A DNA stretch of 60,444 nucleotides from Sagittula marina (GCF_014196795.1 NZ_JACIEJ010000016.1:1-60444); one strand, 5' to 3'. Shown: positions 3,526-25,415, counted from the first letter of the stretch. Program-made: numbers and translations. The notes: a model not told the origin generated them from the letters alone.

Positions 3526-4655
3526 TGGCCTGCATTGCGCGTATCGAGGCCTGGGCCTGCCGGAGCCCAATCGCCGAGCCGGTTGCCACGTCTTTCGGGA
3601 TCATGCGCAACCGCCCGGCGGTCTTCGTTCGGGTGGAGGACGATGACGGCGCATTTGGCTGGGGCGAGGTCTTTGCCAACTGGCCAGCCGCCGGGGCGGA
3701 GCATCGCGTCAATTTGCTGGCGGATGATGTGGCGCCGCTCGTTCTGGGGCAGGCGGCGGACGACCCCGCCGCCCTGTTCCAGAAGCTCGAAGACCAGCTC
3801 TACATTCGCGCCCTGCAATGCGGTGAGTTCGGCCCCTTCAGGCAAGTTGTGGCCGGTATAGATCAGGCACTGTGGGACATGCGCGCGCGGCGAGAGGCCG
3901 TTGCGGTGCACGTGATGCTGGGAGCCTCTCCAGTGATCCGAGTGCCCGCTTATGCCAGCGGTATCCACATCGACGCGGCAGACCGGGTGATCCCTGAGGC
4001 GCGGGACACAGGTTTCCGTGCGTTCAAGGTCAAGGTCGGTTTCAGCCCGGATGAGGCTGCGCGAGTTCGCGCACTGATGGATGGGCTAAACAGCGGCGAA
4101 CAGCTTGCGCTCGACGCCAATCAGGGGTGGGACACCGAGAAGGCGAAGACCTTTCTTGATGCTGTGGCGGACCTGCCGCTGATGTGGATGGAAGAACCGA
4201 TCCGCGCCGACATGCCCGCTTCCGACTGGCACCGTTTGGCCGGCCGTGTGCCCTTGGCGGGGGGAGAAAATATCGCCGGGTTTGCTGATTTTTCTGCGAG
4301 GCTGGGGGAGGGGGTGCTCTCTTTCGTGCAGCCTGACATTGCGAAATGGGGCGGGTTTAGCGGCTGTCTCGCCGTTGGCCGTGCTGCGCTGTCGGCTGGG
4401 GCGACCTACTGCCCGCATTTCCTTGGGGCCGGGATCGGTCTGCGGGCCTCCGCCGAGTTGCTGGCTACCGTGGGGGGGCCGGGTCTGCTGGAAGTTGACG
4501 TGAACCCGAACCCGCTTCGCGATGCGTTTGGCACGGTCCGCGACAGTATTGAGGACGGCCATTGGCGGCTCGGGCCGGGGCCGGGCCTTGGCGTAAGCCA
4601 GCTGCCCGAAGCGGTGGCAAAGTGCATCACACACCGCCGGGAGGTGCTGGCCTAG
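3525..4655 (+). CDS. Enolase-superfamily mandelate racemase/muconate lactonizing-type enzyme
   Basis: A 376-residue enolase-superfamily protein with an N-terminal capping domain and a barrel. Visible catalytic residues are the Lys pair in FKVK (168, 170), metal ligands Asp198 (LDAN), Glu223 (MEEP) and Glu248 (GGEN), the DIAK motif at 271-274 and His298 (CPHFLG). Such enzymes abstract the proton next to a carboxylate and are often sugar-acid dehydratases or lactone-forming enzymes. Its start overlaps the aldolase stop, so it is translationally coupled as the third gene of this operon. A role as a second sugar-acid dehydratase or a cycloisomerase is possible. The 3' end overlaps the convergent suyZ-like gene by 4 bp. 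Confidence 0.8.
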   Translation: MACIARIEAWACRSPIAEPVATSFGIMRNRPAVFVRVEDDDGAFGWGEVFANWPAAGAEHRVNLLADDVAPLVLGQAADDPAALFQKLEDQLYIRALQCGEFGPFRQVVAGIDQALWDMRARREAVAVHVMLGASPVIRVPAYASGIHIDAADRVIPEARDTGFRAFKVKVGFSPDEAARVRALMDGLNSGEQLALDANQGWDTEKAKTFLDAVADLPLMWMEEPIRADMPASDWHRLAGRVPLAGGENIAGFADFSARLGEGVLSFVQPDIAKWGGFSGCLAVGRAALSAGATYCPHFLGAGIGLRASAELLATVGGPGLLEVDVNPNPLRDAFGTVRDSIEDGHWRLGPGPGLGVSQLPEAVAKCITHRREVLA

Positions 4656-5686
4656 ACCAGCACCATCACTCCTGCGAGCACAAAGCCCGCGATGAACACC
4701 GTTTCCACGAAGATTAGCGCGACCGATTGTGGCGGCACCGCCAGAATGCGCTTGAGGTCCGTCTTCATGCCCACGGCTGCAATGGCAGTCAGCATCGCCC
4801 ATTTCGACAGCGCCCACAGCAAGCCCTGAATTGCGGTTGGGACCGCCCCCAGAGAGTTGACAAGCGCCAAGCCCAGGAAGGCCATCACAAAGCCCGGCAG
4901 GATGGGAGGGCGCTTGCCGTCCACCGGCTCCGCCATGCCAGTGCGGCGCAGGACCAGTGTCAAGATTAGCACGAAGGGGGCCAGCATCGACACGCGGATC
5001 AGCTTGACGGTGGTTGCAGTCTCTCCCACCGGTTCGGATACGGAGAAGCCTGCGCCGACCACCTGCGCCACATCGTGGATCGTTCCCCCGAGAAAGACGC
5101 CGGATTGCAGGTCTGTTAGCCCAAGGACGTTCGACAGGATCGGGTAGACGACCATGGCCACGGTCGACAGCAGCGTCACGCCGAAGACGGTGAACGACAG
5201 ATTGCGCTCCGATAGATCGTTGCGCGGCAGGACGGCGGCAATGGCCATGGCGGCGGAGGCACCGCAGATCGAGACCGATCCGGCGGTGAGGATCGCCAAC
5301 CGCCAGCCACGCCCAAGCGACCGGGCTGCCGCCCATCCGAAAGCCATGGTTGCCAGCAGGCCGCCAACAACCAGCCCCACCACCTGCCAGCCGAGTTGGG
5401 CGAAGACCTCGAACGAGATCCGTGCGCCTAGCAGGGCCACGCCGAGGCGCAGCACGGTCTTGGCCGCAAGACCGATGCCCGGCGCGCAGCGCTCGCCGTC
5501 GTCGACAAGAAAGTGCAGCGACAGGCCGATCAGCAGCGCCATCAACATCGCTGGTGCGCCGTAATGGTCGGAAAGGAACTGTGCCGCCAGCGCGGCAAGC
5601 CCGCAGACAAGCAGACCCGGCCAAACGGTTTCGGCGCGCTGGAAGATGCCCCTTACTCGGGGCATCGTGTTGGTAAGTGTAGTCAT
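4652..5686 (-). CDS. suyZ: YeiH/UPF0324-family exporter, probable sulfite exporter SuyZ
   Basis: A 344-residue multi-spanning inner-membrane protein of the YeiH/UPF0324 (PSE) family. Typical stretches include VLRLGVALLGARIS, GSVSICGASAAMA and GGTIHDVAQVVGAG. Family members called SuyZ or TauZ sit in organosulfonate operons and are thought to export the sulfite or sulfate released. Here it is the last gene of the suyAB operon, 19 bp behind the TTT permease, which fits export of sulfite produced by SuyAB. Transport itself is inferred from family and context. Confidence 0.8.
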   Translation of the reverse strand: MTTLTNTMPRVRGIFQRAETVWPGLLVCGLAALAAQFLSDHYGAPAMLMALLIGLSLHFLVDDGERCAPGIGLAAKTVLRLGVALLGARISFEVFAQLGWQVVGLVVGGLLATMAFGWAAARSLGRGWRLAILTAGSVSICGASAAMAIAAVLPRNDLSERNLSFTVFGVTLLSTVAMVVYPILSNVLGLTDLQSGVFLGGTIHDVAQVVGAGFSVSEPVGETATTVKLIRVSMLAPFVLILTLVLRRTGMAEPVDGKRPPILPGFVMAFLGLALVNSLGAVPTAIQGLLWALSKWAMLTAIAAVGMKTDLKRILAVPPQSVALIFVETVFIAGFVLAGVMVLV

Positions 5687-5705
5687 GTCTTTCTCCGGAC
5701 AGGTC

Positions 5706-7688
5706 TCAGAAGATCATTCCGCGTGGCAGTGGGACGGACAACGCTTCGCGGAAGCCCAGGGTGAAGATCAAAATCACTGCAGCAACGCTGGCGGCAAGTA
5801 TCAGCCAGCCCCGTGCCGTGCGCTTGTCATGCTCAGCAGCCAGAAAAAGGCCTAGCGCCATGACGATACCGGCAAGGGCAAAGCCCAGAACCGGCGCCAG
5901 TGCGACGCCGACCGCCATGGCCACCGGGACCGCGATGCGGCGTGGTGTGGAGCCTGAAGAGCGGTCCTCGACAACGCGCCTTGTCAGCAAGGTTTCCAGC
6001 GCCGCGAAAGCGCAGAGCACGAGCATCCCAATGGCAATTGTCTGCGGGAAGACGGCGGCCTCTGGATTGAGCAGCGTACACTGCCACAGAGCCACCAGCG
6101 CAACAGCAGCCATGACACCGACGGCCGCTAGATCGCGCAGAATCGCGGCGGTGCTTGCGCGGTCTTTGGCATTGGCCTTTTCGGGCATGGCTTCCTCGCC
6201 TCCCCTGCGAAACATGCGCTTGATGTCGGGCAGGAACGGGTAGATGAAACTAAGCGCTGTGAGCGCGATGATCACCATCGACAGTGGCCGCCCGAAGAAC
6301 TGTCCAGGGATAGACCCCATGGCATCGCCAATGGTCCAGCTCTGGACAAAACCCTCTTCGGCGATCCGACCCAGAATCAAACCCAAAACGATGGGTGAGA
6401 CAGAAAAGCCGCGCCGGTTCGCCAACCAGCCGATCACGCCGAGCACCAACATGATGCCTACGTCTGACAGGCTGTTGCGGATGGCAAAGCTGCCAATGAT
6501 CGTCATGAAGGCCACCACGGGCACCAGCCCCGCTTTGGGCGCCTTCACGATGGAGCTGTAGGCAAATCGCCCGATAATGAGGCCTGTGGGCAACATCAGA
6601 ATCGTGGCAAGGAACAGGCCAAAGATGAAGGTATATACGATGCTCGAACCGTCGTTGAAAAGCGTGGGTCCCGTCCTGACCCCTTGCACCATAAGCGCGC
6701 CGAGGATCACCGCATCGGGCGGCGTGCCCGGGATGCCAAGAACCAGTGTCGGGATGAAGCCACCGCCGACGGTAGCGTTGTTGGCGCTCTCGGTGGCGAC
6801 GATGCCGCCAGGATTGCCTGTGCCGTAGGCTGGCTCGCTGCGGTCAGAGCGGCGCGCCTCGGAATAGGCGACCAGCCCGGCGATGGACCCGCCCGCGCCA
6901 GGCAGAGCACCCACAAGTGTGCCGATCAGCGAACTGCGCAGGACGTTGACCTTCTGGCGCATCAAGGTGGCAAACGCTTCGGGCAGACGGAAGCCGCGGG
7001 TCTGCTCTGGCGCGTCGAGGTGCCTTTCGGATCTGGCGGCAAGTTCGATCAGCACAGGCACGCAGTAAAGGCCGATCAGGGCGGAGACCGTCTCGATCCC
7101 GCCGAGCAAAGTGTTCGAGCCGAAGGTGAAGCGCACCTCACCGGATGTTTCGGATATACCGATCATCGCAACGAGGATGCCGAAGCAGGCCCCGATCAGC
7201 CCCTTTAGGAAGTCACGTGTCGAGAGTGCGGCAATCAACGACAAGCCGAATATCGCCATCCAGAAGTATTCGCCCGGACCAAATGCGAGCGCTGCGGTAG
7301 CCAGCGGCGGCGCCAGAAGAAGCAGCGCGAAGGCGCCAATAAGGCCGCCAACCAGCGACGAGAGACAGGCGATGGTGACGGCAAGATCACCATCGCCGCG
7401 TTTCGCCATCGGATAGCCATCAAACGTCGTGCCGATGGCCGAGGGCGTGCCGGGCGTATTGAGCAGAATGGCAGCATAGGCCCCACCATAAATCGCGCCG
7501 GTGTAAATTGCGCCCAGCAGGATCAGCGCGCTTTCCGGCGGCATGCCAAAGGTGATCGGCACCAGAACAGCGACTGCCATGGTTGCGGTCAGACCAGGCA
7601 CAGACCCGATGATGGTCCCGGCCGCAACGCCAGCCAGCGCCAGCAGAAAATTGAGCGGTGTCAGGGCCGCAAGGAAGTAATCGAGCAT
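5706..7688 (-). CDS. tctA: TTT-transporter large permease fused to TctB-like domain
   Basis: A 660-residue membrane protein. Residues 1 to about 490 are TctA, with the characteristic GSVPGLTATMAVAVLVPITF and LLNTPGTPSA motifs near the N-terminus and GALPGAGGSIAG mid-protein. The last ~150 residues, after a charged linker (MPEKANAKDRAS), add about four membrane spans resembling TctB, the small permease that is otherwise a separate gene. The reading frame extends upstream, but ATG 7688 begins the conserved MLDYFLAALTPLNF. With the binding protein 106 bp upstream it forms a periplasmic-binding-protein-dependent secondary importer, placed inside the sulfolactate operon. Roseobacter sulfolactate clusters also carry a TTT system, so uptake of sulfolactate is likely. 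Confidence 0.85.
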   Translation of the reverse strand: MLDYFLAALTPLNFLLALAGVAAGTIIGSVPGLTATMAVAVLVPITFGMPPESALILLGAIYTGAIYGGAYAAILLNTPGTPSAIGTTFDGYPMAKRGDGDLAVTIACLSSLVGGLIGAFALLLLAPPLATAALAFGPGEYFWMAIFGLSLIAALSTRDFLKGLIGACFGILVAMIGISETSGEVRFTFGSNTLLGGIETVSALIGLYCVPVLIELAARSERHLDAPEQTRGFRLPEAFATLMRQKVNVLRSSLIGTLVGALPGAGGSIAGLVAYSEARRSDRSEPAYGTGNPGGIVATESANNATVGGGFIPTLVLGIPGTPPDAVILGALMVQGVRTGPTLFNDGSSIVYTFIFGLFLATILMLPTGLIIGRFAYSSIVKAPKAGLVPVVAFMTIIGSFAIRNSLSDVGIMLVLGVIGWLANRRGFSVSPIVLGLILGRIAEEGFVQSWTIGDAMGSIPGQFFGRPLSMVIIALTALSFIYPFLPDIKRMFRRGGEEAMPEKANAKDRASTAAILRDLAAVGVMAAVALVALWQCTLLNPEAAVFPQTIAIGMLVLCAFAALETLLTRRVVEDRSSGSTPRRIAVPVAMAVGVALAPVLGFALAGIVMALGLFLAAEHDKRTARGWLILAASVAAVILIFTLGFREALSVPLPRGMIF

Positions 7689-7794
7689 TCTCCGGTTCCC
7701 ATCATTCAGAAGCAGAGCAGGCCGCGAAACGGCCCGGTCGGGGTCATGCGAAGGGCGGGGCGGCGGATGCGTCACCCCACGCTGTCCGCGACTT

Positions 7795-8751
7795 TTAGTC
7801 GATGACACCTGCGGCGCGGGCGGCGGGAATGTACTCCTGCGCGCGGGCTGCCATCCAGGCATCCATCTCCTCGCCGTAGGGCACGTCGATCAGAGCAAAG
7901 CCTCCGTCGATCATCTTCTGCTGGAACTCAGGATCGGCGTTTATGGAGGCGATGGCATCGGACACCGCGCGGCGCGTTTGCTCGGAGGCGTCCTTCGGCA
8001 CGGCGATGCCACGATACGCGCCGGATACGATATCATACCCCAGTTCCTTGAATGTCGGCACATCGGGGAAGGTGGGGTGACGCTCTTCCATAGCCACAGC
8101 CAACATACGCACCTGATCTCCCTGTCCCGCGGCCACTGTGGTATAGCCCCACTCCGCTGCGACCTGTCCACCAAGCATGGCGGTGACCGCCGCGCCGGTG
8201 CCCTTGAAGGCCACGTAGGTCGTCGTGGTCTCTGCCAGCGTGTCGAACTTGATCGCGACGAGATGGTTCGCCGTGCCCTTTCCCGAGCCGGAGAAGGTGA
8301 CTTTCTTCGGGTTGGCCTTTGCTTCGGCGATCAGGTCATCGAGTGTCTCGTAAGGACTGTCAGCGCGTACAACGATGGCATCGGGCGTGTAGTGAAACAT
8401 GTAAACGTTGGTGATGTCATCGGTGTCGTAGCCGACATTACCCTGCTTTGGCTGAACGATGATATGGGGCAGGTTTACGCCCATTATTACCGAACCATCG
8501 TCAGCCATTGAATTGAGTTGCGACCAGCCAACGGCTCCGCCGCCTCCGGGTTTGTAGCTGACGACCAGTTGTTCGTCGTAGAGTTTTTCGAAGAAGGGCT
8601 GCTGCAAGCGTGCGGTGATGTCGGATTCGCCGCCCGGCCCGAAAGGGATGATGTACTCGACCTGTCCCGGCGGGAACTCCTGCGCGAAGGCTGAGAAGCC
8701 AGACGTAAGGGCAACAAGGCCCGCAGCTGCGGCAAACATGTATTTCTTCAT
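7795..8751 (-). CDS. tctC: TctC-family periplasmic binding protein (probable sulfolactate receptor)
   Basis: A 318-residue Bug/TctC solute receptor. The first 24 residues form a signal peptide ending at AFA-Q. The mature part starts with the family hallmark VEYIIPFGPGGESDITAR and has the later pattern FSGSGKGTANH. The start is supported by GGGAGGAAC ahead of ATG 8751. It should deliver a small carboxylate, plausibly sulfolactate, to the fused permease encoded just downstream. A GC-rich hairpin lies in the gap after comC and may tune expression of this gene relative to the enzymes. Confidence 0.88.
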   Translation of the reverse strand: MKKYMFAAAAGLVALTSGFSAFAQEFPPGQVEYIIPFGPGGESDITARLQQPFFEKLYDEQLVVSYKPGGGGAVGWSQLNSMADDGSVIMGVNLPHIIVQPKQGNVGYDTDDITNVYMFHYTPDAIVVRADSPYETLDDLIAEAKANPKKVTFSGSGKGTANHLVAIKFDTLAETTTTYVAFKGTGAAVTAMLGGQVAAEWGYTTVAAGQGDQVRMLAVAMEERHPTFPDVPTFKELGYDIVSGAYRGIAVPKDASEQTRRAVSDAIASINADPEFQQKMIDGGFALIDVPYGEEMDAWMAARAQEYIPAARAAGVID

Positions 8752-8849: not shown

Positions 8850-9851
8850 TCAGGCCTCGTTGGGCCCAGTCAGATTGAGGTCCTGTATGAGGTGCCCGGG
8901 AATGGTGACGCGTTCCTCCATACGTCCCATCAACCGTTTCGCACCCGGCAGGCGTGTGCCTGGTTGCTCGAGGATTGCCTCGAGCAACCCGTCCAGTCTC
9001 TCGGCGAATCCGGGCGAGCGGGATACGTCAAAGGCCAGGATCATTTGGCCGACACCGGGCGGCGGGCCATCAGCGTCGAAAAAGGACGACGCCTCGTCCG
9101 AGCGGTTGGCACCCGTCACCAGAGCTGCGAGGATTTCCACCACCAAGGCAAGCGCCGCACCTTTAGCGTCGCCCGCGGGCACCATGGTACCCTTCAACGC
9201 CGCGTCGGCGTCCGTGGTAGGCTGACCGTCGGCATCCAGAGCCCATCCCTCGGGGATCGGTTTGCCCGCCTTCGAGGCCGCCATGACCTTGCCCCGTGCC
9301 ACTTTGGACAATGAGAGGTCGATCACCAGTGGTGGATCATCCCCGCGAGGCGCAGCGAAAGCGATAGGGTTCGTCCCGAAAAGTGCACGCGACCCGCCCC
9401 ATGGCGCCATCGCCTGCGGCGTGTTGGCGACCATGAGCGCGGCAAACCCCTTGTCGGCCAGCCGCTCCACATGCGCGCCGAGCTGTCCGCAATGGTGTGA
9501 GCGGCGGATGGCCGCCATGGCCACGCCATACTCCGGCGTCATATCAACCAGTTCGGAGATCGCCAGATCGATCGCTGGAAAGGCAAAGCCGCTGCGTGTG
9601 TCGATGTCCACACGAGCGCCTTTGCGTGTCGCCACGGGGCAGGCGGCGCCGATGACTTTGCCGCTGGCCACCTGTGCGGCATAGGAGGCAACGCGCGAAA
9701 AGCCGTGGCCTGCCTGCCCGTCGATCTCAGCCGCGACCAGCGCACGCGCCACGCTTGCGGCATTGCGCCTCGAGGTCCCGGCTGCTTCGAGCACGGCGGC
9801 AATCTTTGTCTCGGCCTCGCCGCGTGATAGCGTCATGTCAGACTGCGGCAT
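8850..9851 (-). CDS. comC: Ldh2-family (R)-sulfolactate dehydrogenase, ComC type
   Basis: A 333-residue malate/L-lactate dehydrogenase-2 (Ldh2) family oxidoreductase, with SHHCGQLGAHVERLA and FGTNPIAFAAPRGDDPP typical of this NAD(P)-dependent fold. ComC proteins of this family interconvert sulfopyruvate and (R)-sulfolactate. Immediate coupling to slcC and suyAB makes that role very likely: SlcC oxidises the S-enantiomer to sulfopyruvate and ComC reduces it to the R-form that SuyAB cleaves. ATG 9851 overlaps the slcC end by 14 bp and has an AGAGG-type RBS; an alternative ATG at 9836 lacks one. Confidence 0.85.
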   Translation of the reverse strand: MPQSDMTLSRGEAETKIAAVLEAAGTSRRNAASVARALVAAEIDGQAGHGFSRVASYAAQVASGKVIGAACPVATRKGARVDIDTRSGFAFPAIDLAISELVDMTPEYGVAMAAIRRSHHCGQLGAHVERLADKGFAALMVANTPQAMAPWGGSRALFGTNPIAFAAPRGDDPPLVIDLSLSKVARGKVMAASKAGKPIPEGWALDADGQPTTDADAALKGTMVPAGDAKGAALALVVEILAALVTGANRSDEASSFFDADGPPPGVGQMILAFDVSRSPGFAERLDGLLEAILEQPGTRLPGAKRLMGRMEERVTIPGHLIQDLNLTGPNEA

Positions 9852-10773
9852 GTATCAACGCCTCTTTGACGTTTTTGACCGTTATGCCGCTCACACGCAC
9901 GTTGGCCTCCTGTGTGACGCCAGCAATGTGAGGGGTCAGGATCAGGTTGGGCACGCCGTCAAACACCGCGCCAGCTTCTGCGGTCAGCGGCTCAGTTGCA
10001 AACACGTCGAGCGCAGCGCCACCCAGCTGCCCGGCCTTTAGCGCATTGGCCAGCGCGGCCTCGTCTATCACTCCGCCGCGCGCGGTGTTGATGACGACAG
10101 CTCGCGCTTTCATGCCGCTGAGAGCTTTTTGGTCGATGAGGTTACGTGTTTCGTCCGTCAGCGGTACATGCAGCGAAACGACATCGGCGCGGCCCAGCAA
10201 TTCGTCAAGCGTGCAGCGCTGCGCGTCCTTCCATGCCGGATCTTGGGCAGGCAGGAAAGGGTCGTAGGCGGCGATGGTCATGCCGAGGGCGCGGGCCCGC
10301 TCTGCGACGGCGCGCGCGATGCCGCCGTAGCCAACAAGGCCCATCACGTGCCCAGAGGCCTCACCGCCGATCAATGCGTTGCGGGGCCAGTCGCCAGCGA
10401 TCATCGCGGCATTCGATCCATAGGCGCCGCGCAGCAGCGACAATGCGGTGGTGATGACATATTCCGCGACAGAAAGTGTATTGGCCCCGGTGGCGGGTCG
10501 TACCGCTACGTCGCGTGCAAGACAGGCGGGCATATCGATATTGTCGAGCCCTACGCCAAGGCGGCCCACGACGCGCAGATCAGGCGCGGCGTCAAGCAGG
10601 GCGCGGTCGACCTGAGTGCGGTTGCGGACGATCAGCCCGTGTGTGCCGGGAAGCGCCGCAAAGAGCGCCTCCCGGTTGTCCACCAGCGTCGGATCGTAGA
10701 TCACGTCGACCCCCTCGCCAAATCCGGCGAGGGCATCTTCGTCCATGAACTCCGTTATGACGACCCGCATCAT
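9838..10773 (-). CDS. slcC: (S)-sulfolactate dehydrogenase SlcC (D-2-hydroxyacid dehydrogenase family)
   Basis: A 311-residue NAD-dependent 2-hydroxyacid dehydrogenase of the SerA-like family. The dinucleotide motif is GYGGIA at about 148-153, and the catalytic triad is visible as Arg232 (ARGG), Glu261 (ATEPL) and His282 (TPHIAG). SlcC oxidises (S)-sulfolactate to sulfopyruvate. The assignment rests on the family plus position between suyB and comC, with its ATG overlapping the suyB stop (GCATGATG). Outside this context it would be called phosphoglycerate dehydrogenase-like. Confidence 0.85.
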
Positions 10774-11951
10774 GCGGACCGGTAGAGCTTGGTCAGGGAG
10801 AACTCGCGGTGCCCCAGGGCCTCGGCGGCGGTGTTGCGGCCGTTGGCCGTGCGCATGATCATCTCGATCAGCGAGTCACCTGCCTCTTCGATGGTCTGCT
10901 CACGTGTCAAAACGCCGGTCACGTCCACGTCGATGTGTTCGGACATGGTGCGCAGGGTACGTGGGTTGCCGGAGATCTTGATGACCGGAACGATGGGGTT
11001 GCCGACCACGTTGCCTTGCCCGGTGGGGAACGTGTGGATGACATAGCCCGCCGCCGCCATCAGCGTGACGCATTCCGCCGCAGCCGAAGACGTGTCCATG
11101 AAATACAGGCCCGGCCCCTTTTCAGGTGCAACAGCAGGACCCATCGCGTCGATGTAGGAGGAGGTGCGACCGATCTTTTCGAGGTTGCCGAGTGCCTTCT
11201 CCTCAATCGTGGTCAGTCCGCCGAGGATGTTGCCCTTGGTCGGCTGGCTGTCTGAAAGATCGGAGGTCTTGAAGGCTTCGATCACGTCGTCTTGATAGGC
11301 TTGGAAAATCTTCTTGAAAGCCTCGCCCGCTTCCGGGGTTGCCGCGCGCTTTTCGCAGATGTGCTCTGCGCCTGTGATCTCGGAGGTCTCGCCAAAGCAG
11401 CCGTAGATGCCTTCGGGCAGCAGCTTGTCGTACATGTTGCCGACAGTGGGGCAGGATGAAAGGCCGGTTGTGGTATCGCTTTCGCCGCACTTGGTGGAAA
11501 TCCACAAGTCAGAGACAGGGCATTCTTCCTTCTGTAGCTCCGTCGCCCATTGGACATATTCCTTGGCTTTCCAGCTGGCCTGGCGGATCGTCTCGAAATC
11601 GCCCTTCTGCTCGATGGAGAAACCTGTGACGGGCTTGCCTGTTTTCGCGATGCCGTCGACGATGATTTGCGTCCATTCAGGTTCGATTCCGATGACCACC
11701 ACGGCGGCGACATTCGGGTTCGCGCCGGTGCCGATCATGGTTCGGAAGTGCAGGTCGAGGTCTTCGCCGAACTGGAGACGACCGTAGGCGTGTGGAATTG
11801 CCAGCGAGCCTTTCACGTTGTTGGCCACCGCTTCACAGGCGGCGTTCGAGATGTCGTCGACCGGTAGGATTACCACATGGTTGCGCACGCCCACGCGGCC
11901 GTTCTCGCGGCGCCACGCATTCACGGTCATGTTCTTGAAATCAAATGCCAT
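10770..11951 (-). CDS. suyB: (R)-sulfolactate sulfo-lyase, large subunit SuyB
   Basis: A 393-residue UxaA/altronate-dehydratase-family large subunit. The N-terminus [23 protein letters not shown], the cysteine-containing [22 protein letters not shown] segment and [23 protein letters not shown] are typical of SuyB and its UxaA relatives. With SuyA it splits (R)-sulfolactate into pyruvate and sulfite in the cytoplasm, the desulfonation step of this locus. suyA ends 3 bp upstream and slcC starts within the stop codon, so the genes form one tightly coupled operon. Confidence 0.92.
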
Positions 11952-12242: not shown

Positions 12243-12298
12243 GGTTGGTCCTCCTCGTTGACCCACGTTTCATTAACAAACGCGTAACATGTACATTA

Positions 12299-12314: not shown

Positions 12315-12382
12315 TATTATACAGAACTTGCTTAAGGCGCTCATGCGGTGCTATTTACTGCGTAATCTCAGGAGGATGGTTC

Positions 12383-15956: not shown

Positions 15957-16011
15957 GGTCTCTCCTCCCACTGAAGCATTGGCAACACGCTGTGCTGCCC
16001 TCCCTTAGTCA

Positions 16012-16121: not shown

Positions 16122-17159
16122 TTATGCGTAAGCTGCTGAAAACGCACCTTCACGTGTGATGCCCGACGCGTCAAGCGCAGGCGTCCAAGGCGTTACCTTC
16201 TCGGAGGTCAAAGCCTTCAGCGTTCGCAGGCGTTGCAGGCCGTCGCGTTCCAGATGCGCCAGCACCGCTTCGACGTCCGGAAAACCACAGACAATCGAAT
16301 CAAGCCAGATCGTCCGTCCGGCCAGGAACCCCTTCGCGCCTGCGGCATACGAATACTCAAGCACGCGACCGAAGTGTTCCGGCGCGGACCCGCCCGACAA
16401 CATGACCCAAGGCGCGCCTGCCTCTGCGCAGATGCGGCCGAGTTCGTCGAAAGCCTGCGTGGCCTCGCGGTGCGCGGGGCTGCCGTCAAGCGGGGGCAGG
16501 CTGGCGGCGGGCAGGGGGGTCTCCAATTTAAACAGGTCGACACCGTATTCAGGTTTGGCAAATTCGCGCACGCTTTCGATCACCAATTCCGCCCGCTTGT
16601 CGGGGGATTCGACGTAGTCAGTGGTGTGATTGGCGGAATCCGGGAACGGGTAAACGAGCAACTCCAGCACGTAAGGCAGGTCATGGCGGCGACATTCGGC
16701 GCCGACGGTGCGCACGTAGTCCTGCTGGTGCGCGATGACCTCCGGACTGGCGTCGGGTCGATACCAAGCGAGGACTTTCACCGCGTCGCCGCCAATGCGC
16801 CGTATCTTCTCGACGCTCCAGTTTTCGATCGACCGACTCAGTCGCCCAGTCGATGTGTCAACGAACCGATGCTCTTCGAGCGTTACGATCATACCGGTGC
16901 TCGACGGTAGGATATCCATAGCGGCCGGGATGGCAAAGTTCGGGTCCAGCAGCATGGAAGACGCTTCCTTGCCCAAAGCCTGCACTAGCAGGCGCTTTGC
17001 TGTCTTTACTTCCTCAAAGCTCACCTCCTCCGGCGATACGTTGCGCGCTTCTGCTATGGCCGCGAAAAGCGGTGGGCGCTGGTCGAGAGCCACCATGGTG
17101 AAAAGCCCGTTCTCGTCCGCGAGCCGTGTCAGGCCCCTCTGTTTGCCGTAGGTGGTCAT
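16122..17159 (-). CDS. LacD/YihT-type class I aldolase, probable sulfofructose-1-phosphate aldolase
   Basis: A 345-residue class I aldolase of the LacD (tagatose-1,6-bisphosphate)/YihT family. Asp26 lies in VALDQR, Lys128 in AVKVLAWYR and the probable Schiff-base Lys211 in DLFKLETPL. WVMLSGGSAPEHF and GFLAGRTIW close the active site as in YihT. Coupling to a YihV-like kinase (ATG within the kinase stop codon) and to an aldehyde dehydrogenase supports cleavage of 6-deoxy-6-sulfofructose-1-phosphate into DHAP and sulfolactaldehyde. ATG 17159 is chosen from this overlap. A tagatose-bisphosphate activity cannot be excluded from sequence alone. Confidence 0.82.
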   Translation of the reverse strand: MTTYGKQRGLTRLADENGLFTMVALDQRPPLFAAIAEARNVSPEEVSFEEVKTAKRLLVQALGKEASSMLLDPNFAIPAAMDILPSSTGMIVTLEEHRFVDTSTGRLSRSIENWSVEKIRRIGGDAVKVLAWYRPDASPEVIAHQQDYVRTVGAECRRHDLPYVLELLVYPFPDSANHTTDYVESPDKRAELVIESVREFAKPEYGVDLFKLETPLPAASLPPLDGSPAHREATQAFDELGRICAEAGAPWVMLSGGSAPEHFGRVLEYSYAAGAKGFLAGRTIWLDSIVCGFPDVEAVLAHLERDGLQRLRTLKALTSEKVTPWTPALDASGITREGAFSAAYA

Positions 17160-18061
17160 GCGTTCTGTCTCCATGTCATTAGTGTTTCGTCGCGCGCCGG
17201 TATGCCGCTGCGTCCGCCGGGTTTGGTGCATTTCAGGGCTGCGGCTGCGGCGGCGAAGCCCATCGCGTCGCGGATCTCCAGACCGGCGCCCAAGGCAAGC
17301 GCATAGGCGCCGTGGAACACGTCGCCCGCGCCGTTGGTGTCCACGACTGCGACCTTCATGGCGGAGCGGTGGCACTTTGTACCGGCGGAAATCCAGTCGA
17401 CCCCGTCGGCGCCACGCGTCACGGCGGCCAGCGAGCAAGTTGCCCCGATGCGGTCGAGGTCACCGCCCGCGTAATCGAGCAGCGAGCTTTCGGAAAAGAT
17501 GGCGTGATCGGTCAGAGGCAGAAGCCTGTCAAAGATTTCCGCGTCGGACACCTCGGCGTCCAGTACCGTCGGGACACCTGAAGATCGGGCGATCTCGAAA
17601 GCCTTCGCGGCCCCATCCGGCCAGCGTGGATCGGCCAGCACCACGTCTGCTTCGGCGATCCGCGCTGCTGGCAACCACGACGGATCATCTGGCAGGTTGG
17701 CGCCGCGGAAGTTGACGATCTGCCGCTCGCCCGCTGCATCGACCAGCACGCAGGATACTGACGATTGCGCGCCCGGGACCAGCTTCATGTCGGTGACATC
17801 CACGTCTTCGCTGAACAATTCGCGACGCATGGCATGACCGGCTTCGTCCGCTCCGGCACGACCGAGGAACACAGCCTGTCCGCCAAGGCGCGCCACGGCC
17901 ACGGCCGCGGTGGCCGCCATGCCGCCCCCCCGCGAGGCGAACCCTTCGGCCCGTGTCTTGCCGCGCTCTGGAAGAGACTCCACCTGCCAGATGTGATCCA
18001 GCGCTGTCATGCCGACGCAGACCACGCGTGGGCGCAGTGTTTCTGGGAAGCCCGGGATCAT
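17156..18061 (-). CDS. yihV: PfkB-family kinase, probable 6-deoxy-6-sulfofructose kinase (YihV type)
   Basis: A 301-residue ribokinase/PfkB kinase. GGGMAATAAVAVARLGG (45-61) and the catalytic DTNGAGDVFHG (241-251, base Asp247) are visible. Several stretches parallel E. coli YihV as I remember it: VVLADPRWPDGAAKAF, PTVLDAEVSDAEI and the C-terminal LKCTKPGGRSGIP. Phosphorylation of sulfofructose by ATP gives the substrate for the aldolase whose start lies in its stop codon. It likewise starts inside the stop of the aldehyde dehydrogenase. This is the best single sequence marker of sulfoglycolysis in the window. Confidence 0.82.
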   Translation of the reverse strand: MIPGFPETLRPRVVCVGMTALDHIWQVESLPERGKTRAEGFASRGGGMAATAAVAVARLGGQAVFLGRAGADEAGHAMRRELFSEDVDVTDMKLVPGAQSSVSCVLVDAAGERQIVNFRGANLPDDPSWLPAARIAEADVVLADPRWPDGAAKAFEIARSSGVPTVLDAEVSDAEIFDRLLPLTDHAIFSESSLLDYAGGDLDRIGATCSLAAVTRGADGVDWISAGTKCHRSAMKVAVVDTNGAGDVFHGAYALALGAGLEIRDAMGFAAAAAALKCTKPGGRSGIPARDETLMTWRQNA

Positions 18062-19512
18062 AGACCGGCCACGCAGAGGTACTTGATCTCCAGATATTCC
18101 TCGATCCCGTATTTCGAGCCTTCGCGGCCAAGGCCTGACTGCTTGAACCCACCGAAGGGCGCGGCCTCGTTGGCGATCAGACCCGTGTTCACCCCAACGA
18201 TGCCGCTTTCCAGCGCTTCGCCTACGCGAAACATGCGGCGCAGGTCGTTGGTATAAAAATAGGCGGCCAGTCCAAACTCAGTGTCGTTAGCCATGGAAAT
18301 GGCCTCTTCGTCTGTCCTGAAGGAAACGACAGGGGCTAGCGGGGCAAAGGTCTCCTCATGCGCCAACCGCATCTTCTGCGAGGCACCGAAAAGAACGGTC
18401 GGCTCGAAATATGTGCCCCCCAGAGCATGACGCTTGCCGCCCGACACAAGCCGAGCGCCCTTTTCCAGCGCGTCAGAAATGTGGCTTTCCATCTTCTCCA
18501 CCGCGGCCATGTCAATCAAGGGGCCTTGATCCGTTCCTGTCTCCGTTCCTGGACCAACTTTCAGCGCTGATGCCGCCTCGCCGAGCTTTTCTGCAAAGGT
18601 TTCCGCCAGGCTTTCGTGGACGTAGATGCGGTTGGCACAGACGCAGGTCTGGCCGGAATTGCGGAATTTTGCGATCATCGCGCCCTGCACCGCTTCGTCC
18701 AGATCGGCGTCCTCGAAAACAATAAACGGCGCATTGCCGCCCAGCTCCAGTGAAAGTCGCTTCACATCATTTGCCGCCTCGCGCAGCAGCCAACGTCCCA
18801 CTTCGGTCGAGCCTGTGAAGCTGATCTTGGCCACGTCAGGGTTCGTGCAGAATTCCGTGCCGATCATTGCTGCCTTGCCGGTGACCACCTGGAAGATGCC
18901 CTCCGGTACCCCGGCGCGTTCCGCCAGCACCGCAAGGGAGAGCGCAGAAAGTGGTGTTTGCGAAGCGGGTTTGACAATGATCGGGCAGCCCGCAGCAAGT
19001 GCCGGGCCAGCCTTTCGGGTGATCATGCCATTGGGGAAATTCCACGGCGTGATCGCCACACAGACCCCGATTGGCTGCTTCAGCACTAGCACACGGCGGT
19101 CTTGCGACGGTGCGGGTATCACGTCGCCATAGACGCGCTTGGCCTCCTCCGCGAACCATTCGAGGTAGGCGGCGTTGGCAACGATCTCACCCTTCGACTC
19201 GGCCAGCGGCTTGCCCTGTTCGGCAGTCAGGATCTGCGCGAGGTCATCGGCATTTTCCACGATCAGCTCGTACCAGCGACGCAGGATGGCTGCGCGTTCC
19301 TTTGCGGGGCGTGCGGCCCATGCGGGCATGGCGGCCTTCGCGGCATCCACGGCGTCGCGGATGGTTTCCACCGGCAGCGACGGCACGATGGCCACGGTCT
19401 CATCAGTGGCTGGGTTGGTCACGGCGATGCCGTCCGTTTCCGAAATCCAACGATCCGCCACGCGGCAGGCATCGGTGAAAAGCGTCGGGTCTTTGAGGGA
19501 AAGCGCGGTCAT
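18058..19512 (-). CDS. NAD(P)-dependent aldehyde dehydrogenase, probable sulfolactaldehyde dehydrogenase
   Basis: A 484-residue GabD-like aldehyde dehydrogenase with Asn158 (PWNFP), Lys181 (VKPAS), general base Glu256 (LELGGN) and nucleophile Cys290 (NSGQTCVC). By family it would be called succinate-semialdehyde dehydrogenase. SLA dehydrogenases of known sulfoglycolytic pathways belong to the same group. Located between the importer ATPase and the kinase with ATGA-type overlaps on both sides, it most likely oxidises sulfolactaldehyde to sulfolactate, feeding the suy operon. Confidence 0.82.
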
Positions 19513-20579
19513 ACGGCCTCCAGTGTTTTTTGGCGCAGGCTGGCGCCGGTTTCAGGATCGAAGAGATGCGCCTTGTTCATGGCAACACGAAGCGATAGCC
19601 TTCCATGGGCGCGGGCGGGTGTGTCGGGCGGCACAGATGCGATCGCCTCCGTCCCTGCGAGGTCGAAGTGTACCAATGTTTCGGACCCCAGCGGCTCCGT
19701 CAGTTTGACCGGCACGCTTACTCCCGATAGATCCGGTACGAAGTGTTCTGGCCGGATGCCAAGACGGACGGATTGGCCTTCGCGCAGACTTTTCGGTGCG
19801 TCCAATATTGTGCCGTCAGTCAGTAGCAGCTTCCCTCCCTCCACCCTCGCGTCGAAGATGTTCATCGCGGGCGAGCCTATGAAGCCGCCGACAAACTCGT
19901 TAACGGGCTGGTTGTAGACTTCCTCCGGCGTGCCGACCTGCTGGATCACGCCATCCTTCAGCACCACGATACGGTCGGCCATTGTCATGGCCTCCACCTG
20001 GTCGTGTGTCACAAAGACCATAGTTGTCTTCAGCTGATCCGAAAGCGCCTTTATCTCGGCCCTGACCTGCGCGCGCAGCTTTGCATCAAGGTTTGACAGC
20101 GGCTCGTCGAAGAGAAAGACGCGTGGGTTGCGCACGATGGCCCGCCCCATGGCGACGCGTTGGCGCTGGCCGCCGGACAGCGCTTTGGGCCGCCGTTCGA
20201 GAAACTTGGTAATGTCGAGCAGCGCCGCTGCGCGGTCCACCTGCTCCGTGATTTCTGCCTTCGGCACGTTGCGCATTTCCAGCGCGAAGGACATGTTCTG
20301 CCGCACCGTCATGTGCGGGTAGAGTGCATAGTCCTGAAAGACCATGGCGATATCGCGTTTCGACGGCTGCACGTCATTTACCAGGTCATTGCCGATATAT
20401 AGCTCTCCGCCGGAAATCGGTTCTAGTCCGGCCAGAACGCGAAGAAGCGTGGACTTCCCGCAGCCAGAGGGCCCCACCAGCACGACGAACTCGGTGTCGC
20501 GAATTTCCAGTGACAAGTCCGGGATAACGGTCAGTGCGCCGTAGGCTTTTGACAGTTTTTTCAGGGTGATGGATGCCAT
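19509..20579 (-). CDS. Carbohydrate ABC importer ATPase (MalK/UgpC type)
   Basis: A 356-residue ATPase with Walker A GPSGCGKS (36-43), signature LSGGQRQR (134-141), Walker B FLFDEP (155-160) and the C-terminal OB-fold regulatory region of MalK/UgpC proteins. It energises the two permeases at 21602 and 22443. The start overlaps the zinc dehydrogenase stop (TAATG), and its stop overlaps the aldehyde dehydrogenase start. In agrobacterial sulfoquinovose operons a related ATPase (SmoE) serves SQ-glycoside import; the same job is proposed here. Confidence 0.88.
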
Positions 20580-21598
20580 TAGCGGTCCTCCTCGTCGAGC
20601 ACAAGCACCGGCTTGATCAGACCACCGCGTGCGAATTGGGCGAATTTCTCTGGCAGGGCATCGAGACCGAAACGGTCGTCCACGAGTCGTGCGTAGGCAT
20701 CGAGATTGGCGCGCAGGAGCGCGACATTGGGTTCGAAATCGCCTTTTGGAAAATAGAAGGTGCGCAAAAGAATGAAGTCCTTGCGGCGGAATACCGGACC
20801 TTCGTGGATCGTCCAGGGCGCGGCATTTTCGCCGACGAGTACTATCACGCCCTTGGGCAAGATAAGATCTATGGCGATGTCGCGCGCCGGGTGCGCCCCG
20901 GAGCATTCGACGATCAGGTCGAAACGCTTTTCTCGGCTGCCGACGAAATGTGGCGTGGCGCCGAACTCTTGCGCCAGGTCCAAGCGCGCGGCATTCGGGT
21001 CAGAAACATGTACGCCCGAAAACCCCATCGCCTTTAACGCTAGCAGCACGCCGAGCCCCACAGGGCCAGCCCCGGTGATGAGGATCTTCGGCGTGTCGGT
21101 GGCGAGGTGACGCTTCGCCTCGCGCACCGCGTGCGCAGAGGTTCCGATCGTGTCCAGCAGCAGCGGCGCAAGGTCCACAGGGATGTCGTCGGGCACCGGC
21201 AACAGGCAGTTTTCGGGCACGCGCACCCATTCGGCATAGCCGCCATCGCGATTCCATCCGACCAGCGAGGACACTTCCGTACACATCTGGGTGTTGCCCG
21301 CCGCGCAGGTTTCGCAGGTGCCGCAATGCTCGGGGATGTAGACGGCGCAGTGCTGGCCTTCGAGGGGGTGCCCGGGTTGGCGTACCACTCCACAGATCTC
21401 GTGGCCTGCCACATGCTGTGCACCTTTGTGCCATAGCTTGAGATCCGACCCACACAGCGCTGTGCGAGTGACGCGCAGAATTACCTCGCCGGAGGCTTTG
21501 GTCGGCCGCTCTCTGGTGCCGATTTCAATCACGTTATCGCCCTTGAATTCGGCGAAGCGCATTGTTGATGGGAGGTCGTTGATCATAATTGTGTTCAT
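20579..21598 (-). CDS. Zinc-dependent medium-chain dehydrogenase of the sulfosugar operon
   Basis: A 339-residue MDR-family alcohol/polyol dehydrogenase. Catalytic zinc ligands Cys49 (LCGSD) and His66-Glu67 (AGHEICG), four structural-zinc cysteines at 92, 95, 98 and 106, and the NAD motif GAGPVGLG are visible. It lies inside the ABC operon between a permease and the ATPase. Known sulfo-EMP operons do not need such an enzyme. It may oxidise a sulfonated polyol or sugar on the way to sulfofructose, standing in for the missing isomerase. That role is an inference. Confidence 0.78.
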
Positions 21599-23317: not shown

Positions 23318-24034
23318 TCAGCTTGCTAGGAAGCCGCCGTCGACGGCGTAGACCGACCCGGTGACATAGGCAGCAGCGGGCGAGCACAGGAAGGCAACCG
23401 TGCCTGCCACGTCTTCGGGCTGTCCCCAGCGTTTCAGGGCAGTCCGGTCGGCGATCCGGCTATAATGCGCGCGATCGGCGCGGCCTTCGGCGTTGATGTC
23501 GGTTTCGATGAAGCCGGGCGACACCGCGTTTACGCGGATACCATCCGGAGCCCAGGCATGGGCGAGCGCCCGCGTCAGCATGACCACTCCAGCCTTCGAG
23601 GCACAATAGGCCGGCAGGCGGGGCAGGGCGCGCTCGGCATTCATCGAGGCGACGTTGACGACGCAGCCCCGGGCGGCCTCCAGCGCACCGTGAAAGGCAT
23701 GGCAGCAGGAGTAGGTGCCCGTTAGGTTCACGTCGATCACATGGCGGAAGGTGGCGCGTTCAAACTCTGCATCGCGTCGCAGAATACCGGCGCAATTCAC
23801 CAGCACATCGAGACGCTCGAACCGGCTGGCAAAGGCGTCAACCGCTGTATCATCCGTCACGTCGAGCGCCACGCCAACCAAACCCGACGCGGTGACCTCG
23901 GCCTCTGTCGCACCGGTCACGGTGGTCTCGATGCCCCGGTCGCGAAGACATCGCGCGACGGCGGCGCCAATCCCGCCAGTTCCACCGATCACGACAGCGC
24001 AGCGCCCTGCGGGCATGGCAAGGGGGTCAGTCAT
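23318..24034 (-). CDS. Short-chain dehydrogenase/reductase of the sulfosugar operon
   Basis: A 238-residue classical SDR with GGTGGIG (17-23), NCAG (80-83), catalytic Ser130, Tyr143 and Lys147 (YCASK). ATG 24034 follows AAAGGGA. In sulfo-ED organisms an SDR oxidises sulfoquinovose to its lactone. Position between the sugar-binding protein and the permeases fits an enzyme acting on the imported sugar. With the zinc dehydrogenase it could also carry out a two-step redox isomerisation. The substrate is unproven. Confidence 0.78.
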   Translation of the reverse strand: MTDPLAMPAGRCAVVIGGTGGIGAAVARCLRDRGIETTVTGATEAEVTASGLVGVALDVTDDTAVDAFASRFERLDVLVNCAGILRRDAEFERATFRHVIDVNLTGTYSCCHAFHGALEAARGCVVNVASMNAERALPRLPAYCASKAGVVMLTRALAHAWAPDGIRVNAVSPGFIETDINAEGRADRAHYSRIADRTALKRWGQPEDVAGTVAFLCSPAAAYVTGSVYAVDGGFLAS

Positions 24035-24064: not shown

Positions 24065-24106
24065 AAAAAAAACCGCGGGGGCATGGCTGTGCCGGGCACC
24101 CCGCGG
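24065..24106 (-). terminator. Intercistronic hairpin with T-tract after the binding-protein gene
   Basis: On the minus strand CCGCGGGG pairs with CCCCGCGG (24106-24099 with 24080-24073) and is followed by eight T residues (24072-24065). It lies 11 bp after the stop of the binding-protein gene and before the SDR. This is a rho-independent terminator or attenuator, which probably lets the periplasmic protein be made in excess over the rest of the operon. Confidence 0.8.
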
Positions 24107-24116
24107 GAAGTGAGGA

Positions 24117-25415
24117 TCACTGGCGCGCAATCAGTGCATCAAGCTGCTCGTTCGCGGCGGCGCAGGCTTCCGCGACATCGGAATCGCCGAGCAGCACGGC
24201 ATTCACCGCTTGCCCGATGTATTCCCGCGATTCCGGATTCTGGACGATGGGATACCCCACCTCCGACGTGCCCGTCGCCGCCAAGTCGGCCAGCGCCGCG
24301 TTCCATTCGCCGCGAACCGTCTGTTCCGCCAGCCAAGCCTGATAGTCCGGATCATCGGCAGCGCCCGCACGCGGAGGTGCAATACCGTCCAGTGCCAGCT
24401 TCGCCTGCATCTCGGGCGAGGTCGCCCACTGCACGAAGTACCACGCGGCATCCGCATTGTCGGAGAAGGCCGAGACAGACAGTGCCCAACCGATCGTCGT
24501 TGGGACAGAGCCGCCATCGCCAGCGGGCAGCGGCACGATCCCGGTGTCCTCTAGGCGCTCACCGCCTTCCATAACCGCCGAAAGCTCGTTCGATGACTGG
24601 AAGGACATTGCCGCCTGACCCGCACGATATAGCGAGGTCAACTGGTAGAAACTGTAGTTCACCACGCCCGGAGGGCCGTAGTCGCGCAGCAGCGTTGCAT
24701 AGGTGTCGATGGCCGACTGGGCCGCGTCTGAACACAGCGCAGACCTGCCGTCCGCCATGTAGCTGCCGCCCATGTTGTGCAGAAAGTTGGAGAACGTGTA
24801 AGGCAGCGCCGGTTTCAGGCCGCGCGACGCAAAGGCCGTCATGTCGGGCTTGCAGGACTTGATGGTTTCGGCTGCAGCCTGAAGGTCTGCGAGCGTGTCG
24901 GGCACCTCTACGCCGCACTCAGCGAACACGTCCTTACGGTAGTAAAGCAGCGGTCCCTCGATGTTCAGCGGAATACCGGTCAAAACGTTGTCGAAGGTAG
25001 CAGCCTCGACAAGCGCGTCGCCAAGGCCATCGAAATCATACTCGGGCGAAACATCGTCCTTGGCGTGCTCTGCCAGGTCATTATACCAGCCAGCGGCGGC
25101 GAACTGCATCCCCTCGCGCGAAGGCAGCGTCATGAAGATGTCGATCTCGTCGCTGCGCGCGTTCATCACCGTCATCAGGCGCTGGCGCATTTGCTGTTCT
25201 TGGTAGCTGTCGACCGCCAGCGTAATGCCGGTCTTTGCCTCGAAGTCGTCTTTGTACTTCAGCACAGAGGTTGCCCATGGGTTATTGTTGGCGAGAAACG
25301 TGATCGTTTCGCCATCATGGGCTTTCCAATCGAAATCTTGTGCCAATGCCTGAGTGCCAAGCGCCGCGCTCAGTGCGACTCCGGCAACCCCTGTAACAAG
25401 CTGTCTTTTTGTCAT
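24117..25415 (-). CDS. Extracellular carbohydrate-binding protein, candidate sulfoquinovose/SQ-glycoside receptor
   Basis: A 432-residue type 1 solute-binding protein (MalE/UgpB-like) with a signal peptide ending near ALA-Q at residue 25. The mature part has ITFLANNNPWATSVLKYKDDFEAKTGI and NIEGPLLYYRKDVFAECGVEVPDT, typical for oligosaccharide receptors. ATG 25415 follows AAGGGAGGAAATTCA. It heads the nine-gene sulfosugar operon. The agrobacterial SmoF receptor binds sulfoquinovosyl glycerol; a similar ligand is proposed from the downstream enzymes, not from the binding-site sequence. Confidence 0.85.
   Translation of the reverse strand: MTKRQLVTGVAGVALSAALGTQALAQDFDWKAHDGETITFLANNNPWATSVLKYKDDFEAKTGITLAVDSYQEQQMRQRLMTVMNARSDEIDIFMTLPSREGMQFAAAGWYNDLAEHAKDDVSPEYDFDGLGDALVEAATFDNVLTGIPLNIEGPLLYYRKDVFAECGVEVPDTLADLQAAAETIKSCKPDMTAFASRGLKPALPYTFSNFLHNMGGSYMADGRSALCSDAAQSAIDTYATLLRDYGPPGVVNYSFYQLTSLYRAGQAAMSFQSSNELSAVMEGGERLEDTGIVPLPAGDGGSVPTTIGWALSVSAFSDNADAAWYFVQWATSPEMQAKLALDGIAPPRAGAADDPDYQAWLAEQTVRGEWNAALADLAATGTSEVGYPIVQNPESREYIGQAVNAVLLGDSDVAEACAAANEQLDALIARQ

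Follow-up and report, generated by a model that had tools for sequence, protein, structure and literature searches.

Much organic sulfur resides in sulfonated sugars, whose degradation has long been viewed as a relay between species. In this study we analysed a window of DNA, the whole 60,444-nucleotide stretch from Sagittula marina, and we describe in it a block of sulfonate genes which is probably a catabolic cluster for six-carbon sulfonates with three inputs, all ending in sulfolactate. The closest described system is the tandem sulfofucolytic-sulfolactate sulfolyase locus of Paracoccus wurundjeri strain Merri, which takes a C6 sulfonate to sulfite in one cell (mBio 2025, PMC12421959). Clusters of the sulfo-transaldolase (sulfo-TAL) route with the sulfolyase SuyAB in Thermotogae and Chloroflexi were reviewed in 2022 (PMC9594981); this extended sulfoglycolysis, like our locus, combines genes that cleave sulfosugars with SuyAB in a single cluster, and differs from it in its transaldolase route. 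The joining of an upper and a lower half is therefore of a known kind, and the view in the initial annotation of the window that separate bacteria carry the two halves has been superseded, as far as the available text of both publications goes. Its proposal that they are joined here was supported: judged by gene families, the two halves probably stand in one locus, and SuyAB adjoins the upper module B described below, in the window, in genome G531 (another genus of the same family) and in three Paracoccus genomes (G788, G834 and G835). This combination of entries is not described in the open-licence literature that we searched. A locus of this kind, with three inputs and a single desulfonating output and present in two genera, suggests how one bacterium could close the relay.

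The block spans approximately positions 735 to 27677, with about 25 adjoining genes which by their families appear to fall into three modules. Module A combines a tripartite tricarboxylate transporter (TTT) importer with a dehydratase and an aldolase of the sulfo-Entner-Doudoroff (sulfo-ED) type. Module B holds an ATP-binding cassette (ABC) importer, a short-chain dehydrogenase (SDR), a zinc alcohol dehydrogenase (Zn-ADH), a YihV-like kinase, a GabD-like dehydrogenase and a class I aldolase, and module C comprises SuyAB, SlcC, ComC, a further TTT importer and a YeiH-family protein. The block is a unit that is syntenic in another genus: G531 has the full gene set in unchanged order, with identities of 56-92%. 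Synteny stops beyond the second LacI gene, and 11 window genes compared from outside the block (10 to the right, and a transposase fragment to the left) have distant family matches at most in 40 kb of G531. The contig starts at window base 1, just 0.7 kb ahead of IlvD, which limits the view of the left end. All genes named in the initial annotation are present in intact frames where it placed them, and the four-base overlaps it claimed are seen at UgpC/GabD, GabD/PfkB, PfkB/LacD and SuyB/SlcC. Its interval of 4652-25415 was read accurately but begins three genes late and ends two genes early, and its list, correct in what it named, omitted IlvD, HpcH, the mandelate-racemase/enolase-superfamily (MR-family) enzyme, the second TTT importer, SDR, Zn-ADH and the two LacI genes.

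The locus of Merri offers the most direct comparison. There suyA, suyB, slcC and comC are clustered with a Tdh-like Zn-ADH, a PF00294 kinase and a PF01791 aldolase (MDP0926257-260, 266, 268 and 269, according to the available text of PMC12421959), and the window has the same set. The comparison is one of published gene order, the structure 8tnf being the sole sequence that bears the strain's name; by position, MDP0926266 is the presumed orthologue of our Zn-ADH. Since Paracoccus genomes G834 and G835 show the Merri gene order, followed by sfc-type genes, we infer that module B corresponds to the kinase-aldolase group noted in Merri. The loci differ in that Merri uses sfcH, sfcD, sfcF and sfcE for sulfofucose, whereas the window has IlvD-HpcH, a second TTT importer and GabD instead. 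An SfcF-type dehydratase accompanied by SfcH, SfcE and SfcD was not found in the window; its MR-family enzyme was considered as SfcF and rejected, as it is 26% identical to the gene in the sfcF position of G834 and G835 and 59-60% identical to their module-B copy. No GabD/SlaB homologue is reported in the available text on Merri, but the window and 10 other loci among the 18 with module B do have GabD. The sulfolactaldehyde dehydrogenase reported as absent from Merri thus has a candidate in the GabD of the window.

Module B includes, on the minus strand, a kinase and an aldolase whose substrate is quite likely a sulfonated hexulose. The PfkB-family kinase (17156..18061) has YihV as its best solved match at 242 bits and 46% identity, with a runner-up of 173 bits, which upholds the label YihV-like given to it initially. 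The YihV positions K27, N109 and R138, which we take to form the sulfonate pocket, are retained in 18/18 module-B kinases, compared with T-I-E in RbsK and K-V-S in Pfk2. The aldolase (16122..17159) is 68-70% identical to its closest solved protein, 8tnf, deposited as a sulfohexulose-1-phosphate aldolase of Paracoccus onubensis strain Merri, a function given by the depositors' title. Its sequence and modelled fold (mean pLDDT 87) point to a class I enzyme of that kind, and the kinase sequence to a YihV-type enzyme, as in the sulfo-Embden-Meyerhof-Parnas (sulfo-EMP) pathway. Of the earlier description as LacD/YihT-like, the LacD part stands; identity to YihT is 28%. With the yih genes of Escherichia coli our locus has in common a YihV-type kinase and a class I aldolase from one broad family; the sulfo-EMP pathway of Arthrobacter includes a sulfolactaldehyde dehydrogenase (PMC8873060, available text), to which our GabD probably corresponds. 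The window locus differs in lacking YihS and in having SDR and Zn-ADH instead.

Sister loci within the family (L056, L057 and L062) exemplify an isomerase-type set. All three have a LacD aldolase at about 50% identity, a YihV-like kinase and SlcC, L057 has GabD (53%), and L056 and L062 have SuyA, SuyB and ComC. Unlike the window, all three carry a fucose-isomerase-like protein (in L057 at 29.1 bits, just under the cut-off of 29.3), L057 and L062 also have a GFO/IDH/MocA oxidoreductase and a tripartite ATP-independent periplasmic (TRAP) transporter binding protein, and L057 has an aldose epimerase. Module B carries SDR, Zn-ADH and the ABC importer where the sister loci have these genes. In some sister-locus kinases N109 is replaced by T, A or S, and one is gapped there. 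L056 (3829-10480) and L062 (2648-10443), sulfo-EMP-like loci with kinase, LacD and a fucose-isomerase-like gene together with SuyA, SuyB, SlcC and ComC, are themselves candidate complete degraders.

The GabD-like dehydrogenase (18058..19512, minus strand), of the succinate semialdehyde dehydrogenase (SSADH)/GabD type, is probably a sulfolactaldehyde dehydrogenase. Its score is 728 bits to 8c54, which we take to be the enzyme of Rhizobium leguminosarum with this function, and 664 bits to E. coli SSADH (3jz4). The GabD encoded in a sulfo-ED-type cluster of a rhizobium matches it at 67% identity. This reference cluster, from Rhizobium sp. WSM4643, is canonical-looking by annotation and itself uncharacterised. 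Its annotation lists genes for an ABC importer, an SMP-30 lactonase, an SDR, an alpha-glucosidase, TauE and an SSADH-type enzyme; reviews name this set for sulfo-ED in their available text (PMC12890257, PMC9594981). With the sulfo-ED pathways of P. putida SQ1 and R. leguminosarum SRDI565 (same sources) our locus shares an IlvD-type dehydratase, an HpcH-type aldolase and GabD, and its LacI and operator resemble those of the rhizobial cluster. Different are the lack of an adjoining lactonase and of GH31 in the genome, an SDR that is not close, the additional TTT importer, and sulfolactate that would be cleaved and not exported.

Module A was likened to the WSM4643 cluster by sequence. The IlvD/EDD dehydratase (735..2693, plus strand; PF00920, 340 bits) is sulfogluconate-dehydratase-like, 72% identical to its Rhizobium and 83% to its Salipiger counterpart, and its true start is probably just after the operator at 874. 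The HpcH/HpaI aldolase (2722..3525, plus; PF03328), resembling the aldolase for 2-keto-3,6-dideoxy-6-sulfogluconate (KDSG), is 63% and 81% identical to the respective counterparts. Both families that characterise sulfo-ED, sulfogluconate dehydratase (PF00920) and KDSG aldolase (PF03328), are therefore represented as far as sequence can tell. The MR-family enzyme (3525..4655, plus; PF13378/PF02746) carries KxK, D, E, E and H motifs and is a probable sugar-acid dehydratase; it could even be a one-step sulfolactate racemase. The second TTT importer, TctC-TctB-TctA, is encoded at 13063..15971 on the minus strand. TTT systems with known substrates include those for sulfolactate and galactarate/glucarate (PMC5812351, available text). 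As these systems take carboxylates, a sulfo-aldonic acid is a plausible import, and we put the chances that a sulfo-aldonate enters by this route a little short of even.

In Salipiger profundus IlvD-HpcH-MR-family enzyme adjoins a TTT importer (TctA 84%, TctC 74%) and a LacI (64%). The 30 kb around this module A contain no SDR or SMP-30-type gene; present there are a Gfo/Idh/MocA oxidoreductase and two further sugar ABC operons. This compact locus on a plasmid (L106, 13995-22335), with two LacI2-type operators, is a candidate sulfo-aldonate utilisation locus in its own right. In Paracoccus seriniphilus, SuyA/SuyB-type genes lie some 8 kb from a group made up of IlvD, an MR-family gene and the same TTT and LacI; its plasmid L110 (1-17329) runs from the SuyA/SuyB-type genes through an hps-like Zn-ADH, SDR and HisD-type gene to IlvD, MR-family enzyme, TTT and LacI2-type operators. 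A conjugative plasmid of Burkholderia multivorans (L109) carries sulfo-ED-like IlvD, HpcH, SDR, alpha-glucosidase, TSUP, SSADH-type and glycerol kinase genes.

Module C lies on the minus strand apart from its regulator. By homology and synteny, the members expected of a sulfolactate sulfolyase set (SuyA, SuyB, SlcC, ComC, importer and exporter) all appear to be represented. SuyB, the large subunit (10770..11951; PF20629/PF04295), has homologues at 89-92% in 20/125 Paracoccus genomes. SuyA, the small subunit (11955..12266), is a GTG frame with an uncertain start and without a Pfam match; a homologue of 66-92% adjoins SuyB in the loci having both. The SlcC-like protein (9838..10773; PF02826) belongs to the D-2-hydroxyacid dehydrogenase family and has a counterpart near SuyB in G531, G788, G834 and G835. 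The ComC-like sulfolactate dehydrogenase (8850..9851) is named from synteny and its best NCBIfam match, NF040650 (L-sulfolactate dehydrogenase). The importer consists of the binding protein TctC (7795..8751; PF03401) and a TctA-TctB fusion (5706..7862) with PF01970 and PF07331 in one frame, whose start is overlong; an 80% homologue of the fusion is found at the same place in G531. The YeiH-family membrane protein (4652..5686; PF03601, 214 bits) is a putative sulfite exporter, presumably of the SuyZ family. A GntR-UTRA regulator (12377..13084, plus strand; PF00392, PF07702; start uncertain) is divergent from suyAB.

The regulators suggest how modules A and B are connected. LacI1 (25576..26598, plus), the regulator of module B, has a homologue of at least 50% in 17/18 module-B loci, the contig of the 18th stopping short. 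LacI2 (26661..27677, plus) is 54-67% identical to the LacI of the Salipiger, P. seriniphilus and Rhizobium loci, with 54% to that of the sulfo-ED-type cluster and 64% to that beside the Salipiger TTT. LacI2-type sites, which are palindromes, lie before IlvD (TTCGTAGCGCTACGAA, 874..889), before the second TTT importer (ATAATAGCGCTACGAT, 16014..16029) and, with one change, before the solute-binding protein (SBP) gene (ATCGTAGCGCTGCGAT, 25478-25493). The last forms a tandem (25463..25493) with the LacI1-type site TGTAACCGGTTACA (25463-25476), and a second LacI1-type site follows at 25550-25563. The two operator kinds stand one base apart both in the window and in G531, which has LacI2-type sites at the three corresponding places with 2, 0 and 1 mismatches. 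Such sites also precede IlvD and TTT in Salipiger and P. seriniphilus, two occur in the Rhizobium sulfo-ED-type cluster, and none was found in the DNA examined of the other 16 module-B loci. Allowing up to 2 mismatches, TGTAACCGGTTACA precedes SBP, next to LacI1, in 17/17 module-B loci whose DNA extends to the promoter.

In the 5.04-Mb genome the LacI2 pattern occurs at three sites with up to 1 mismatch, all in this block (IlvD, second TTT, SBP), and at three further places with 2 mismatches; within the window, up to 2 mismatches, 3 were found against 0.26 expected, and 0/100 shuffles reached 3. The LacI1 pattern matches twice in the genome with up to 1 mismatch, each time within this promoter; a single further match, with 2 mismatches, lies elsewhere. 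Both patterns, however, were composed after the sites were seen, and their reversed controls outnumber them in the genome at up to 2 mismatches (16 vs 6 for LacI2, 17 vs 3 for LacI1). Therefore only near-exact sites, conservation and position count. On these, modules A and B appear to share a predicted LacI2 switch. Neither LacI operator was found at suyAB, which has its own GntR gene alongside, and one common switch for the whole locus is therefore not established. The coexpression proposed in the initial annotation is accordingly indicated for A and B by the shared operator, but does not extend on this evidence to suyAB.

To survey module B, LacD homologues were scored at E <= 1e-60 with our own genome included. 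They occur in 10/385 genomes of the class, 27/394 of the family, 8/125 Paracoccus and, within the genus, 1/4, which is the own genome. We define module B by the LacD group of at least 58% identity; the remainder are sister loci at about 47-53% plus the intermediate G525 (LacD 55-56%, YihV-like kinase, SlcC, ABC importer). The table of 18 loci leaves out the sister loci and G525, as well as six of 13 plasmid matches: H4, H5, H9 and H11, of the same or near-same identity as included relatives from the same organism, and H12 (48%) and H13 (40%). The 18 loci, from Alpha- and Betaproteobacteria, are not independent (three are Shinella, and G834 is close to G835), and the DNA examined ranges from 6 to 60 kb each. 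LacD, kinase and Zn-ADH are found in 18/18, and SDR, SBP and LacI1 in 17/18, the contig of the 18th beginning inside the Zn-ADH gene; an MR-family gene (homologue of at least 48%) is found in 14/18, GabD in 11/18 and IlvD in 3/18. Within that DNA SuyA and SuyB occur together in 5/18 loci, a TSUP/TauE-type transporter in 7/18, and both in 0/18, a pattern that fits cells either cleaving sulfolactate or exporting it. In Paracoccus, suyB is present in 5/7 genomes with module B against 15/118 others (p=0.0011 by Fisher's test without a kinship correction). Two rhizobial loci, L017 (16001-28452, Neorhizobium) and L018 (20001-32430, Rhizobium), have module B beside sulfatases, a formylglycine-generating-type enzyme and a sulfonate ABC importer.

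The pathway that we propose is built on families, homology, synteny and operators; all its substrates, the direction of flux and most of all the SDR/Zn-ADH step are our interpretation. In module B the ABC importer would take up a 6-sulfo-hexose or 6-sulfo-hexitol, which SDR and Zn-ADH would convert by oxidation and reduction into a 6-sulfo-hexulose, replacing the missing isomerase. The YihV-like kinase may then form the 1-phosphate, and the class I aldolase would cleave it to dihydroxyacetone phosphate (DHAP) and sulfolactaldehyde. In module A a sulfo-aldonic acid, imported by TTT or formed inside the cell, might be dehydrated by IlvD and/or the MR-family enzyme and cleaved by HpcH to pyruvate and sulfolactaldehyde. 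GabD would oxidise sulfolactaldehyde to sulfolactate, which SlcC and ComC may racemise and which the first TTT could also import. SuyAB would finally release sulfite and pyruvate, with the YeiH protein exporting the sulfite.

Convergence on sulfolactaldehyde, sulfolactate and then pyruvate and sulfite is in our opinion probable. The oxidoreductive isomerisation by SDR and Zn-ADH is a tentative suggestion. Somewhat more doubtful is the full version, an isomerase-free entry to sulfoglycolysis in which these two enzymes interconvert sulfohexose or sulfohexitol and sulfohexulose and a sulfo-ED-type regulator adds a TTT-fed sulfo-aldonate branch; if it is true, sulfosugar, sulfosugar acid and sulfolactate would all be degraded to pyruvate, DHAP and sulfite within the same cell. 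In the open-licence literature that we searched no substrate is described for module B, and sulfohexulose, sulfosorbitol and sulfomannose find no mention there. This raises the testable question of which sulfosugar feeds a kinase-aldolase module with dehydrogenases but without an isomerase.

Several observations weigh against the proposed pathway. According to the available text of PMC12421959, neither the kinase nor the aldolase of Merri increased significantly with sulfofucose, sulfotagatose was not detected, and its Zn-ADH did increase with sulfofucose yet did not oxidise sulfolactaldehyde. The low identity of our aldolase to YihT belongs here, as do the lack of both LacI operators at suyAB and two family scores under their cut-offs, that of ComC to NF040650 (151 bits, cut-off 500) and that of the YeiH protein to TIGR00698 (124.6 bits, cut-off 232.6). 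GabD has the catalytic Cys and the proposed sulfonate-binding Arg171 and Arg289; since E. coli SSADH has these residues too, they do not separate the two activities. GabD is not in the module of G777 and six others of the 18 loci. Six loci have neither SuyAB nor TSUP in the DNA examined; three of these have suyB elsewhere in the genome (G774, G776 and G850), none was found in the genomes of G775 and G777, and there was no match in G875. In the rhizobia and Variovorax suyB was found in 0/7, the plasmid record being what was searched.

Could the substrate be sulfoquinovose, as the initial annotation implied, processed by a sulfo-EMP pathway with an isomerase from elsewhere in the genome and then by SuyAB? 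The YihV-like kinase and the GabD-like dehydrogenase would fit, and the genome does encode one PF07221 protein (YihS family), on another contig. But G531 has the full block without a PF07221 match, its one PF02952 (fucose-isomerase-type) match (38 bits) lies about 0.53 Mb from the block, and our own genome has no PF02952 match. The annotated block contains no isomerase between sulfoquinovose and sulfofructose, either of the YihS (PF07221) or of the SqvD type, and GH31 sulfoquinovosidase (PF01055) has no match in our genome or G531. Because of the missing locus isomerase and the missing GH31 sulfoquinovose is doubtful as substrate, and nothing in the locus points to it, although GH31 is not universal in sulfosugar pathways. 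Such a pathway would also give SDR and Zn-ADH no role, and Merri, with its module-B-like group, failed to grow on sulfoquinovose (PMC12421959, available text). We regard it as quite improbable. A sulfo-EMP route for sulfofucose or sulfotagatose, the epimeric partner of the ED route for sulfofucose in Merri, is distinctly unlikely as well: the aldolase is of the LacD/tagatose family, and in G834 and G835 module B adjoins sfc-type genes and suyAB in the order that the published MDP numbers imply, yet in Merri the sulfofucose response of kinase and aldolase described above and the absence of sulfotagatose are joined by a lack of isomerase activity (same source, available text).

A role of module B in the breakdown of a common ketose or polyol without a sulfonate group, with its place beside sulfonate genes due to chance, is very improbable. 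Polyol catabolism often involves enzymes of the LacD, Zn-ADH, SDR and SSADH families, and 13/18 loci are without SuyAB in the DNA examined; the closest solved aldolase, however, is deposited as a sulfohexulose enzyme, the YihV residues are kept in all 18 kinases, 12/18 loci have SuyAB or a TSUP-type transporter, and the operator is shared with sulfo-ED-type genes. The shared LacI2 operator could also mean that A and B are one pathway, in which SDR makes a sulfo-aldonolactone of the sugar taken up by the ABC importer, IlvD or the MR-family enzyme dehydrates, HpcH cleaves, and kinase and aldolase form a ketose side branch. Variovorax has TSUP, IlvD and HpcH after module B, on the opposite strand, and in Paracoccus an MR-family gene adjoins LacD. 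We consider this unlikely nevertheless. No SMP-30-type lactonase (PF08450) is found in the annotated block, a genome-wide search not having been made, and the SDR is 29% identical to the sulfo-ED-type SDR, so that the SDR and lactonase pair of sulfo-ED is not seen. Salipiger module A with its TTT also has neither SDR nor SMP-30-type lactonase in 30 kb, though the oxidoreductase and sugar ABC operons mentioned above are there, and six rhizobial module-B loci are without an HpcH of at least 38% in the DNA examined.

Returning to the isomerase-free entry, SDR and Zn-ADH sit within the ABC operon of module B, all on the minus strand. The SDR (23318..24034; PF13561) was rejected as a sulfoquinovose dehydrogenase on the low identity just given. 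SDR and Zn-ADH (20579..21598; PF08240/PF00107, metal-ligand motifs intact) were also considered as HpsO and HpsP; with identities of 36% and 26% to their hps-like counterparts in P. seriniphilus this is an analogy only. Among solved relatives HpsO scores 119 bits and 8wwd, presumed to be HpsP solely from its entry number neighbouring that of HpsO, 97 bits, no better than other family members. The importer is composed of the SBP (24117..25415; PF01547), two sugar permeases (21602-22432 and 22443-23309) and a UgpC/MalK-type ATPase (19509..20579). The best solved match of the SBP is 5iai with 99 bits, while the sorbitol-binding 4rya scores 66.5 and SmoF, which binds sulfoquinovose-glycerol, 65.8.

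Beyond the conserved block, a transposase DDE-domain frame lies just outside it at 210-671, near the contig start. A second sugar locus at 28158-34445 has a ROK kinase, a DeoC/LacD-family aldolase, a SorC-type regulator and a Peripla_BP_4 ABC importer, and a HipA-family gene is located at 35425-36744.

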